DNA of 64,000 nt from the IMG/VR virus record IMGVR_UViG_3300010354_000064, positions 1 to 64,000 of that record; one strand, written 5' to 3'. How positions within the stretch are numbered: the first letter of the stretch is position 1; the number at the start of each line of letters is the position of its first letter. The notes beneath the pieces were generated by a model. That model was not told where the DNA came from. It was given only the letters and a program-made list of their open reading frames with translations, and searched no databases. Of the stretch, positions 10,558 through 64,000 are shown one piece after another. This DNA comes from a virus. The position numbers and the translations under genes are program-made.

Positions 10558-10598
10558 GCCCCCGTTGGTACTCGGGGGGCTCGACTCGTAGAGGGAGT
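10558..10598 (+). promoter_or_regulatory. CGTTGRT/ACCTCGTAGAGG leader element, copy a
   Basis: A stem formed by GCCCCCG (10558-10564) and CGGGGGGC (10573-10580) carries the loop TTGGTACT. It is followed by CTCGACTCGTAGAGGGAGT directly before the ATG at 10599. The second small hairpin, CTC-GTA-GAG, overlaps the presumed ribosome binding site. The same architecture occurs at five other places (11513, 34360, 61890, 62455, 62699). Confidence 0.6.
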
Positions 10599-10993: not shown

Positions 10994-11521
10994 ATGCGTC
11001 AGACCGCTGCCCAGAGAGTAGTCCACAGGTTCATGCAAGCCAGCGAGCATATCGAGATGAAGGGGGCCATCATGTTCTCGGCCCCCGCCGTGCGTGCCGC
11101 CCAGGAGAAGGGGGAGGAAATCCTCGCCCGCCTCATCGGGCAGGAGAAGGCCGACGAGATGGTCAAAGCCCGCAAGGCGCGCGACGGCGAGAAGGCTCAC
11201 GTCACCATCGCGGGACCGAAGGACGCCAAGGAAGCGGTAGCCCAGAAGGCCGCGAAGGACGGGCTCTCGAAGGGTGCCGCCGAGAAGGCCATCAAAGAAG
11301 ACCTTGCCGGGATGCGCGGTGGGAGCTTCACCGTGAAGGGGCTCGGGCACGCCGAGGGTGGTGGCAACGAAGCCTACTTCGTGGTCATCGACTGGCCCGG
11401 TGGGCGAGAAATCCGCGAGAAGCTCGGGCTCTCACCGGACGGTCAGGACTTCCACGTCACCGTCGGTTTCACGGGCGGGGACGTTCACGGGGTCCGCAAA
11501 GACAAGGTGGTTGCCCGTTGA
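10994..11521 (+). CDS. 2H phosphoesterase-like protein
   Basis: 175 residues. Two H-x-T motifs sit 85 residues apart: HVTIAGPKD (H69, T71) and FHVTVGFTGGDVHG (H154, T156). This is the signature of the 2H phosphoesterase superfamily, which opens 2',3'-cyclic or other cyclic phosphodiesters and includes RNA-repair enzymes and the phage anti-CBASS protein Acb1. The N-terminus has QRVVHRFMQA, a motif shared with other proteins of this phage. The ATG at 10994 has GAGGGG three bases upstream. An ATG at 11072 with AAGGGGG seven bases upstream is an alternative start that would remove the motif. The substrate is unknown. Confidence 0.65.
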   Translation: MRQTAAQRVVHRFMQASEHIEMKGAIMFSAPAVRAAQEKGEEILARLIGQEKADEMVKARKARDGEKAHVTIAGPKDAKEAVAQKAAKDGLSKGAAEKAIKEDLAGMRGGSFTVKGLGHAEGGGNEAYFVVIDWPGGREIREKLGLSPDGQDFHVTVGFTGGDVHGVRKDKVVAR

Positions 11522-11551
11522 TTCCAGACGGGCTCACCTCGTAGAGGGACC
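11513..11551 (+). promoter_or_regulatory. CGTTGRT/ACCTCGTAGAGG leader element, copy b
   Basis: GCCCGT (11513-11518) pairs with ACGGGC (11528-11533) around the loop TGATTCCAG. TCACCTCGTAGAGGGACC then leads into the ATG at 11552. The stem overlaps the stop codon of the 2H gene. CCTC-GTA-GAGG forms the second hairpin over the ribosome binding site. Confidence 0.6.
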
Positions 11552-34359: not shown

Positions 34360-34398
34360 GCCTCCTCTACGAGGTGGCCCCATCGAGAATCAACGTAC
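34360..34398 (-). promoter_or_regulatory. CGTTGRT/ACCTCGTAGAGG leader element, copy c
   Basis: On the minus strand CGTTGATTCTCG precedes GGGGCCACCTCGTAGAGGAGGC and the ATG at 34359. The CGTTGATT again contains the stop codon of the upstream gene. CCTC-GTA-GAGG covers the ribosome binding site. The outer stem is weak in this copy, unlike the others. Confidence 0.5.
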
Positions 34399-61296: not shown

Positions 61297-61707
61297 GTGA
61301 AGGCGTTACCAGTACTCCCCTGTCACCCGTGCCCACACGGTAACCGCTGCTGCTCGAAAGGAACCAACCTCCGAGACGATGAAGCGGCAGACATCGCAGA
61401 GAAGTACGGGGCCACGACTGTCGTGCTTCTGGTGGGGCACGAGGTCCACGAGAGATTTTCGGTCAACGGAGAAGCCGTCTCCGCAAGTACCCTCTGGAAT
61501 CGAGGTGCGCCCGAATGGGCAACAGCCGTAAGCCAGCGAGGGTGCGTATTCCTCGAACCCGACGGGTCTTGTCGGCTGTACGCGGAGTCCTTCTACCCGC
61601 AGGTCTGCCGGATGTTTCCGTGGAAGGATCTCGCATCGGCTGACCGCGCAGAAGACGCGGAGCTATGCCCCGCGCACGGTCAACCGATGGCGACGCAGAC
61701 CATGTAG
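61297..61707 (+). CDS. cysteine-rich YkgJ-like protein
   Basis: 136 residues, plus strand, GTG start. CHPCPHGNRCCSKGTNLRDD gives four cysteines near the N-terminus. Further on come CVFLEPDGSCRLY and PQVCRMFPW, then a final ELCPAH. The C-x(2)-C-x(4)-CC and C...D-x-x-C-x-x-Y...P-x-x-C-x-x-F-P-W spacing resembles the YkgJ/UPF0153 Fe-S or zinc-binding family. It is convergent with the minus gene at 61680, with a 28-base overlap. It is the only plus-strand gene in this part of the window, so it may be a late acquisition. Confidence 0.55.
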   Translation: MKALPVLPCHPCPHGNRCCSKGTNLRDDEAADIAEKYGATTVVLLVGHEVHERFSVNGEAVSASTLWNRGAPEWATAVSQRGCVFLEPDGSCRLYAESFYPQVCRMFPWKDLASADRAEDAELCPAHGQPMATQTM

Positions 61708-61889
61708 GCCGCGAACCGCTCGGGGCACGGAGTACCCTCGCGCCGGACGGCCTCTTCGGCGATTTTGAGCCACAAGGGCTTGTTGTGGGCCGTCGTGGCC
61801 CACTCGCGGATGGACTTGCTCTCGACCTTCGCGAGGGCGCGAGAGAAGAACGCGCGGGCCTCGGACTTCATGGCGGAGTTGGTGCTCAT
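61680..61889 (-). CDS. small helical protein with shared leader
   Basis: 69 residues, ATG at 61889 directly after leader element copy d. Helical (KSEARAFFSRALAKVESKSI; KPLWLKIAEEAVRREGTPCP). No domain is recognised. The small size, basic-acidic helices and regulatory element match the other regulon members. Confidence 0.6.
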   Translation of the reverse strand: MSTNSAMKSEARAFFSRALAKVESKSIREWATTAHNKPLWLKIAEEAVRREGTPCPERFAAYMVCVAIG

Positions 61890-61932
61890 GCTGCCTCTAC
61901 GAGGTGAGGAGGTCGTGTACCAACGCCCCGAC
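61890..61932 (-). promoter_or_regulatory. CGTTGRT/ACCTCGTAGAGG leader element, copy d
   Basis: On the minus strand GGTCG (61932-61928) pairs with CGACC (61915-61911) around a loop containing CGTTGGTAC. TCACCTCGTAGAGGCAGC follows and leads to the ATG at 61889. The element directly adjoins the noncoding stretch 61933-62454. Confidence 0.6.
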
Positions 61933-62454
61933 CCCAGAAACTACGAGAGCCGGTACCTCGGCCAAGGTATCCGGCTCTCAGCGACCAGTATGGCTCGTCG
62001 TCGCCCCGACCCTTTGGTGGTCGGCACCCCCGCGCTCTGGGTTCGCGGTCCCCCGGCTGCGTCCGCCGGACGACCTCTCTGACAGTTGCCCGTCTTGCCC
62101 CTTGGCCGGAGGCTCCCGTGAGAGACGGGAAGTTGGTGGGCTCGTTGCCACCAGGGAACGGCATCGAGAGCGTGGCCCTCGGCAGACCCGTTAGGTCGAG
62201 CCCGGAAAGGTTGGAGTGCGCCCCCGATCTCTCCTCGGGGGCTTGGAGCCGAGCAACCCTCTGCTCGGGGGAGTCCGGCCCTAGAAACCGGAGGTATCGA
62301 AAACTTGCCGGGCTCGTCACCCCGGCGGGAGCCTCGGTCTTTCCTACCATCCCCCCACTCTTGCGAGGGGGAGCCCGACCTCTTTCGAGGCCCCGGAACC
62401 AGCACCCTTGGTTAGCTGGCCTCCGGCCCGACCGTTTCGGCGTCGTCCCTACAC
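61933..62454 (-). ncRNA. candidate large structured noncoding RNA
   Basis: No credible protein is encoded on either strand: all open frames have the Arg/Ser/Gly-rich composition of noncoding GC-rich DNA. At least ten short perfect helices are visible, for example 61946-61978 (8+4 bp), 62114-62130, 62134-62153, 62221-62241 (7 bp), 62249-62268 (7 bp), 62274-62292 and 62353-62371. A 9-bp long-range pairing joins 62197-62205 with 62308-62316 and encloses three hairpins. On the minus strand two hairpin loops are GCAA (62361-62364) and GAAA (62383-62386), both GNRA tetraloops. Leader element copy f precedes it on the minus strand. Function and exact ends are unknown. Confidence 0.5.
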
Positions 62455-62490
62455 TCCCTCTACGAGGTGAGCCCGCTGACTATCAACGGG
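62455..62490 (-). promoter_or_regulatory. CGTTGRT/ACCTCGTAGAGG leader element, copy f
   Basis: On the minus strand CCCG (62490-62487) pairs with CGGG (62475-62472) around TTGATAGTCAG. CTCACCTCGTAGAGGGAGTG follows. No start codon with an open frame follows: the GTG is directly followed by TAG. It therefore heads the putative noncoding RNA. Confidence 0.55.
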
Positions 62491-62698
62491 TTTCTTCGTA
62501 GAGGGCGACCCTTCCTGCTGCCGCCTTCGCTTCCCACCGCTGCACCGCCTGAATGACACGGTGACGGTAGGAGCCGTCCGCTTCTGACGGCCGACGCGCA
62601 ACCTCGACGCCCATCGAACGGACGAGCCGCTCCAGGGCCGAGGTCGGCACCTGACGCAGTTCGTCGAACTTCAGGGTGATGGTCAGCGAGCGGCGCAT
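62483..62698 (-). CDS. small hypothetical protein with shared leader
   Basis: 71 residues from the ATG at 62698, directly after leader element copy e. MRRSLTITLKFDELRQVPTS is followed by ALERLVRSMGVEVARRPSEA and a helical, basic end (RHRVIQAVQRWEAKAAAGRV). It may be a DNA- or RNA-binding fold, though no family is evident. Its stop overlaps leader element copy f, as the CGTTGATAG there includes TGA. Confidence 0.6.
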   Translation of the reverse strand: MRRSLTITLKFDELRQVPTSALERLVRSMGVEVARRPSEADGSYRHRVIQAVQRWEAKAAAGRVALYEETR

Positions 62699-62746
62699 AC
62701 CTCCTCTACGAGGTGAGCGTGCCGAGCACCAACGGAGGGTCGGCAC
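62699..62746 (-). promoter_or_regulatory. CGTTGRT/ACCTCGTAGAGG leader element, copy e
   Basis: On the minus strand GTGCCGA (62746-62740) pairs with TCGGCAC (62725-62719), a 7-bp stem with a loop containing CGTTGGTGC. GCTCACCTCGTAGAGGAGGT leads into the ATG at 62698. The stem lies 24 bases after the GroEL stop and could also act as a terminator. Confidence 0.6.
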
Positions 62747-62770
62747 TTTTCTAGAACTACCGACGTTTCG

Positions 62771-64000
62771 TCACCCGCTCACCACAGAATCGGAGGGCTT
62801 CCTCTTGTGGAGCATGGCCTCGGTCGTCAACATCGTCCCAGCGACCGAGACGGCGTTCTGGAGCGCGCAGCGCACGACCTTGGCAGGGTCAAGCACTCCG
62901 GCATCGAGCAGGTTCTTGACCTCGAACGTCGTCGCATCGAGCCCGTGGTTGTCGTCCGCATCCTCGACGCGCGCAACCCAGAGGTCAGCCGACTCCCCGG
63001 CGTTCTGGCAGATGACTCGCAGAGGCTCGCGGCACGCCTTCAGGACGAGGTTGAAGCCAATCCACTCGGTGTCCCCCTCGGGAAGGTCGTATCGAGCGAG
63101 AGCCGCGCGTGAGCCCTCGTCACCATCGACCGCGAAGCCGACGAGCGCGTTGACCTGGAGAGCCGCGTGAATGAACGTCGTACCCCCGCCCGCAACCACG
63201 CCTTCGTCGATGCTCGACTTGGTGGCGTAGAGGGCGTCCTCCATGCGGGCTTTGAGTTCCTTCATCTCGGGTTCCGTGTGCGCGCCAACGCGAATCACGC
63301 AGACCCCTCCGAGGAGCTTGCCGAGACGCTCCCGAATTTTGTCGGCGTCGTACTCCGAGCCTGAGCGTGTGGCCTCGGCCTTCAGTTCGGCGATGCGTGC
63401 TTCGATGGCTTCGTCGGAGCCGCCCCCATCCGAGATGAGCGTCTCCTTGGCGGTGACGCGGATGCGCTTGGCCGTCCCGAGGTGTTCGAGGGTGAGCCCC
63501 TCGAAGCTCATGCCGACTTCCTTCGAGACGAAGGTCGCGCCGGTCAGTATGGCGATGTCCTTGAGCAGATAGCTCTGCTGCGTGCCGAAGCCGGGGGCCT
63601 TCACGAGGCACGAGAGGAACTGGTTGCGCTGGAGGTTCATCACGAACGTCGGGATGGCATCCCCAGAGAAGTCTGCCGCCATGATGAAGAGCGACCGGCG
63701 CTCGGCGAGGACGGCCTCGATGAGCGGGACGAGCGGACGGACGCTCCCAAGCGTCATGTCGGTCACGAGCACGTAGGGGTCGTGCAGGACCGTCTCCTGC
63801 TTACCCTCATCGGCGCAGAAGGCGGCGCTAGCCCAGCCACGGTCGAGCTTCATGCCGTCGGTTGTCTCGACAACCGTCGTGGCCTTCTTGCCCTCCTCGA
63901 TGTTGACAACCCCATCCTTACCGACCTTGGCGACCGCTTCCGCGATGACGCGGCCGATTTCCTTGTCCCCGTTGGCCGAGAGGGTTGCCACCTGGGCGAT
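62771..64000 (-). CDS. groL: GroEL-like chaperonin, N-terminus beyond window
   Basis: About 409 residues visible. The frame continues past 64000, reading IAQVATLSANGDKEIGRVIA at the edge as in GroEL near residue 145. Apical domain: GMKLDRGWASAAF...VLVTDMTLGSVRPLVPLIEA and NFVMN-type helices. Equatorial domain: IDEGVVAGGGTTFIHAALQV and ATTFEVKNLLDAGVLDPAKV. The C-terminus lacks the usual GGM repeats, ending KRKPSDSVVSG. Phage GroELs help fold capsid or other phage proteins. A GroES partner was not seen. Confidence 0.9.
   Translation of the reverse strand: MAQVATLSANGDKEIGRVIAEAVAKVGKDGVVNIEEGKKATTVVETTDGMKLDRGWASAAFCADEGKQETVLHDPYVLVTDMTLGSVRPLVPLIEAVLAERRSLFIMAADFSGDAIPTFVMNLQRNQFLSCLVKAPGFGTQQSYLLKDIAILTGATFVSKEVGMSFEGLTLEHLGTAKRIRVTAKETLISDGGGSDEAIEARIAELKAEATRSGSEYDADKIRERLGKLLGGVCVIRVGAHTEPEMKELKARMEDALYATKSSIDEGVVAGGGTTFIHAALQVNALVGFAVDGDEGSRAALARYDLPEGDTEWIGFNLVLKACREPLRVICQNAGESADLWVARVEDADDNHGLDATTFEVKNLLDAGVLDPAKVVRCALQNAVSVAGTMLTTEAMLHKRKPSDSVVSG

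Follow-up and report, generated by a model that had tools for sequence, protein, structure and literature searches.

The question raised by this locus is whether a gap of about 520 bases between two small genes of a soil phage holds a structured RNA and, if so, whether that RNA belongs to a known family. A first-pass annotation, made from the letters alone, had proposed a large structured noncoding RNA that would be either GOLLD, ROOL or the like, or a new class. GOLLD, which occurs in phages and prophages, is a large structured RNA that has a conserved part and a less conserved one and forms a homo-oligomeric cage, and ROOL is likewise a large structured phage RNA; both often lie near tRNA islands and their functions are unknown (PMC12286853).

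Source record and genomic setting

The window, i.e. the whole stretch of DNA analysed, comprises 64 kb out of a 75,550-base IMG/VR record (IMGVR_UViG_3300010354_000064), which is itself a fragment. Its source is a giant soil bacteriophage of a huge-phage group with largest records of 300-530 kb, assigned on the basis that portal, terminase and other proteins match that group; the portal is 50% identical to that of the 485-kb phage LR745208.1, 37% to that of Tunturiibacter phage Tunturi_5 and 59-72% to those of about 50 IMG/VR records. The interval under study lies on the minus strand, flanked by a 71-aa gene (62483-62698, downstream of groEL) and a 69-aa gene (61680-61889). On the opposite strand, a 136-aa cysteine-rich ORF (61297-61707, plus; CHPCPHGNRCC) gave a weak DUF7531 match, below the cut-off of that model.

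Coding signal and folding energy

All six frames across the region scored -0.33 to -0.58 bits per codon, compared with +0.49 ± 0.16 for the phage's genes. No other stretch of the 75.5-kb record that is devoid of codon signal is as long as positions 61947-62570 (624 nt; next longest, 337 nt), and no convincing Pfam domain was found in the ORFs of the region. The earlier statement that no protein-like frame is present was thus borne out, no conserved protein was found there, and the region lacks coding signal, as expected of a noncoding RNA.

The folding energy of the whole RNA was modestly better than that of shuffled sequences (z -2.93 and -2.11 in two runs). About 17% of same-size minus-strand windows elsewhere in the phage reach z -2.5 or lower, and local 120-nt windows were unremarkable. 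The shuffle comparison suggested in the first-pass annotation therefore came out in the predicted direction (z about -2 to -3), but weakly and at a level common elsewhere in the genome; energy by itself is weak evidence, within the range of this phage's ordinary genes. Because folding energy alone would not reveal the RNA, the case for structure rests on comparison.

Many of the local helices listed beforehand are present in the window RNA. The 9-bp helix 62197-62205/62308-62316 was likewise confirmed, with three hairpins inside it, this middle domain (62197-62316, minus) being part of the minimum free energy structure with a mean pair probability of 0.87. It is not conserved, however, since the middle domain is without counterpart in the homolog described below, where a strand of the helix makes a local hairpin instead.

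A syntenic homolog in a second huge phage

In a blastn search of 49 huge-phage records, the single significant match (E 2.5e-10) was to IMGVR_UViG_3300048575_000082 (G020). The homolog sits immediately after groEL and ahead of the p129-p71-delta' genes, an arrangement that the window shares, and the two genomes are collinear, most of their long matching stretches being 64-79% identical. The first 71 nt of the window RNA are 79% identical to the homolog, similarity being limited to a 5' domain (62448-62306) and a 3' domain (62007-61934). The window RNA measures about 515-520 nt and the homolog about 350-390 nt; the middle of the former is either an insertion or too diverged for alignment. Across about 33 huge phages the order groEL-p129-p71-DNA polymerase III delta' is kept with variable insertions, and no copy of the RNA was detectable after GroEL in about 33 relatives that share this gene neighbourhood.

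Compensatory changes

As the family has only two members, covariation was counted on sequence-only alignments of the two RNAs, in two aligned blocks. The 33 consensus pairs contain eight two-sided compensatory and four wobble changes, so that, in these two sequences, helices are kept by compensatory changes, as expected of a noncoding RNA; the comparison with related phages that had been suggested earlier thus yielded a syntenic homolog with covariation. Pairing is kept in 66 of 66 cells on the minus strand and in 62 of 66 on the plus strand. The four one-sided (wobble) changes pair on the minus strand only, as they would if it is the RNA strand. Together with the lack of coding signal and the homolog, these changes support a structured noncoding RNA of about 515-520 nt with predicted ends at 61935 and 62456 (minus), and the strand and approximate ends given in the first-pass annotation were right.

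Within the 5' domain, three hairpins were recovered by independent folding of each RNA, the consensus fold containing three two-sided and two wobble changes. Hairpin P2 (62393-62426, minus; loop AACCAAGG(G/A)) shows one two-sided and two wobble changes, and the homolog lacks two of its inner pairs. Hairpin P3 (62377-62392, minus; GAAA tetraloop) is kept in the homolog with a GCAA loop and shows one two-sided change, its two outermost pairs not being kept. Hairpin P3' (62351-62373, minus; GCAA tetraloop) is predicted in the window RNA only and is absent from the homolog; both GNRA hairpins had been noticed before and were confirmed on the minus strand. They are followed by a conserved strand, GGTAGGAAAGACCGAGGCTCCC (62327-62348, minus), of which GGAANNCCNAGGCTCCC is common to both RNAs, and by a conserved hairpin with one two-sided change (62307-62326, minus), which reads GCCGGG-GUGACGAG-CCCGGC in the window and CCCGGG-GUGAUAAG-CCCGGG in the homolog. 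A pseudoknot of AACCAAGG with CCTTGG was rejected and is not claimed, because the CCTTGG partner does not lie at the homologous place.

The best-supported helix is the 3'-terminal hairpin (61945-61979, minus). Its 14 consensus pairs form in each RNA; five two-sided and two wobble changes were counted, no comparable pair is broken, and its folding energy is low in the window RNA (z -6.05) as well as in the homolog (z -7.19). Shuffles equalled the 3' hairpin in 12 of 500 trials and the 5' hairpins in 56 of 500, such controls being necessarily weak with two sequences.

A repeated sequence motif

Each RNA carries three to four copies of the motif CGAC-N8-11-GUCG(GG), a count attained by 0 to 4 shuffles out of 2000; exact matches to a narrower form of the motif were confined to the two RNAs among 80 phage records. 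The copies of the window RNA occupy both end regions, one at the 5' end (r1, CGACGCCGAAACGGTCGGG, 62427-62445, minus) and two near the 3' end (r3, CGACCACCAAAGGGTCGGG, 62005-62023, minus; r4, CGACGAGCCATACTGGTCG, 61982-62000, minus). All three are enriched against shuffles; the exact motif of r1 and r3 is confined to the two RNAs, and the start of r4, GGCGACGAC, is identical in the homolog. Since most copies tested gave no stable hairpin when folded alone, we treat the motif as a conserved sequence and not as a proven structure.

Several dyad-like copies in a noncoding gap of both phages, kept as sequence and not via covariation, are what would be expected if the locus were a DNA element (an origin, partition or packaging site) with CGAC...GTCGGG as protein-binding iterons and the RNA folds incidental. 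This appears improbable, as the hairpins outside the motifs show compensatory changes, the four wobble-type changes retain pairing on a single strand, where alone the GNRA loops occur, and the region is framed by a promoter-like element and a terminal hairpin.

Promoter-like element and predicted RNA start and end

A promoter-like element, CGTTGATAGTCAGCGGGCTCACCTCGTAGAGG, lies directly upstream of the RNA (62457-62488, minus); it is the leader copy from which the first-pass annotation had read the strand, and it was recovered there exactly. Allowing up to 2 mismatches, the element CGTTGRT-N10-CTCACCTCGTAG occurs with fixed spacing in 11 copies in the 75.5-kb record, 0.04 or fewer being expected by chance per source. 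The window holds the copies at 10563-10591 and 11516-11544 (plus) and at 34367-34395, 61897-61925, 62460-62488 and 62706-62734 (minus); those at 69634-69662, 70999-71027, 72715-72743, 72964-72992 and 75379-75407 of the record are all on the minus strand. It is present too in a related fragment (G002), and IMG/VR 3300010354_000517 has it in common. The element also resembles an anti-Shine-Dalgarno hairpin (TCACCTC/GAGG). A leader string shared by L004, L005 and L019 was set aside, the sharing by L019 at least being due to chance.

Most copies stand 4 nt ahead of an ATG. The copy of the RNA is without ATG, and for the copy at record position 71010 the ATG follows about 75 nt downstream; because these two are not placed 4 nt from an ATG, the element is read as a promoter rather than as a ribosome-binding leader, and it is probably a phage-specific promoter. 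A sigma-factor-like gene outside the window (record 68797-69609, minus; L016:8798-9610) is preceded by the same element. Its product matched TIGR02937 (E 3.1e-8, below the curated cut-off) and Pfam Sigma70_r2 (just above cut-off). As this sigma-70/ECF-like gene carries the element upstream, the arrangement suggests a phage-encoded, self-controlled sigma factor. Transcription of the RNA would start from the upstream element, host RNA polymerase probably acting together with the sigma-like protein of the phage, and would stop at the covarying 3' hairpin. That hairpin is followed by the tail GTAGTTTCT (61936-61944, minus), a weak terminator-like run of which GTTTCT is kept in the homolog; it is the sole terminator-like site within 61600-62900 (0.6 expected by chance), and its U tract is weak.

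The RNA lies directly upstream of the 69-aa gene on the same strand, as a long 5' leader acting as cis-regulator of that gene would. Directly after the RNA and ahead of the 69-aa gene, however, stands the next promoter-like copy (61894-61925, minus), and because the gene thus has its own promoter-like element the RNA is not taken to be its leader. A hairpin moreover closes the RNA, and the next gene in the homolog is a different one, p129, all of which makes a leader very improbable.

The homolog begins no more than tens of bases past the GroEL stop codon, a gap with little space for a promoter, and no obvious copy of the promoter-like element precedes it; for these reasons the homologous RNA may be released from the groEL mRNA by cleavage. 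The RNA could then belong to the groEL operon transcript, as a structured 3' untranslated region or a processing product, and not be an independent gene, which would be compatible with a structured RNA. In the window, however, a 71-aa gene and the RNA's own promoter-like element lie between the RNA and groEL, and we regard this origin as unlikely.

tRNA island and groEL neighbourhood

Upstream of groEL, G020 carries an island of 37 tRNA calls and a tmRNA gene (114.7-136.4 kb; L293:14715-18038 and L294), the tmRNA tag being ANDNAIAYEAKAA. tRNAs were found upstream of groEL in seven of eight other relatives examined, four of which also have tmRNA by Rfam; similar tmRNA-bearing islands upstream of groEL were seen in G005, G006, G009 and, by Rfam, G031. 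The record of the window contains one tRNA (65317-65391). Like GOLLD, the RNA is therefore located in a phage near tRNA islands; this setting is common to the window-RNA family and GOLLD/ROOL, whereas the sequence is not.

Family searches and known RNAs

Rfam searches, which the first-pass annotation had proposed, gave no match for the window RNA at gathering thresholds and, at permissive settings (up to E 5-10), nothing meaningful in either RNA. The covariance models of GOLLD and ROOL (gathering and permissive) and of RNase P matched neither the window RNA nor the homolog, and the window RNA was unmatched by group I/II intron, HEARO, OLE and tmRNA searches (Rfam models or ARAGORN). The string TAGGAAAGACCGAGGCTCC of the window RNA, which by eye we take to be vaguely like RNase P conserved region I, is broken in the homolog.

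A covariance model built from the 5' domain was used to scan 126 phage records (80 + 46), several of 312-530 kb, and found no third member. Hits at E 0.005-0.09 (G031, G122, Tunturi_5 and others) did not exceed what the number of records predicts, the weak Tunturi_5 hit lying inside an annotated gene. There was no convincing blastn match in phages and plasmids, and IMG/VR pattern scans with conserved blocks returned the known homolog and chance matches in coding DNA. Seven matches from a GTDB pattern scan were all chance by the model, and weak matches in LR745208 resemble coding DNA. The records searched thus hold two members, and closer relatives may exist.

The RNA resembles GOLLD in being phage-encoded, structured, large and set near tRNA islands, and differs in being shorter, with both ends conserved and the middle variable, and in lying beside groEL in huge phages. 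It shares the same general features with ROOL, and differs by its variable middle, by the CGAC...GUCG(GG) repeats specific to the family and by the lack of an Rfam match. A highly diverged GOLLD or ROOL member would also be phage-encoded, structured, hundreds of nt long and near tRNA genes (compare PMC12286853); with neither RNA matched by Rfam even at permissive E-values, and with many GOLLDs longer than 800 nt against about 350-520 nt for the members of this family, such a relationship is extremely improbable. OLE, HEARO and RNase P RNA are similar as large ornate RNAs and are set apart by the lack of a permissive Rfam match. CsrB/RsmZ-type decoy RNAs are bound by CsrA/RsmA at GGA hairpins. 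The repeated short motifs of the window RNA could similarly bind one partner several times; they are not GGA hairpins, however, and no Rfam match was found.

Discussion

From its sequence features, the minus-strand interval 61935-62456 is very probably a real structured noncoding RNA gene of a huge phage. Of the two identities first proposed, a known family was not matched by Rfam; a new class is supported, because a syntenic homolog with covariation was found and Rfam gave no match. The RNA and its homolog would accordingly be the two known members of a new family of large, structured RNAs in phages, unrelated to GOLLD and ROOL.

Because both ends are conserved and the middle is variable (about 515 vs 350-390 nt), it is probably through its ends that the RNA works. 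Tentatively, it may act as a multi-site scaffold or decoy on which the motif offers several binding sites for one partner; this partner could be a protein, or copies of the RNA as in GOLLD and ROOL, and by analogy self-assembly like that of GOLLD and ROOL is possible. The position just downstream of tRNA genes and a chaperonin gene suggests a role in the translation or assembly programme of the phage. More speculatively, and with slightly less likelihood, this could be a new ornate RNA class of huge phages that arose apart from GOLLD and ROOL in the same tRNA-island setting, is driven by the phage sigma factor and assembles through its motif with itself or with copies of one protein.

To our knowledge, only a few large structured RNAs are known from phages, and their roles are not understood. 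With a two-member alignment and a promoter-like element at hand, both expression and structure can be put to a direct test, and a new family provides another system for asking what large phage RNAs do. A further unrelated RNA family next to tRNA genes of phages would hint that selection favours such RNAs at this location.
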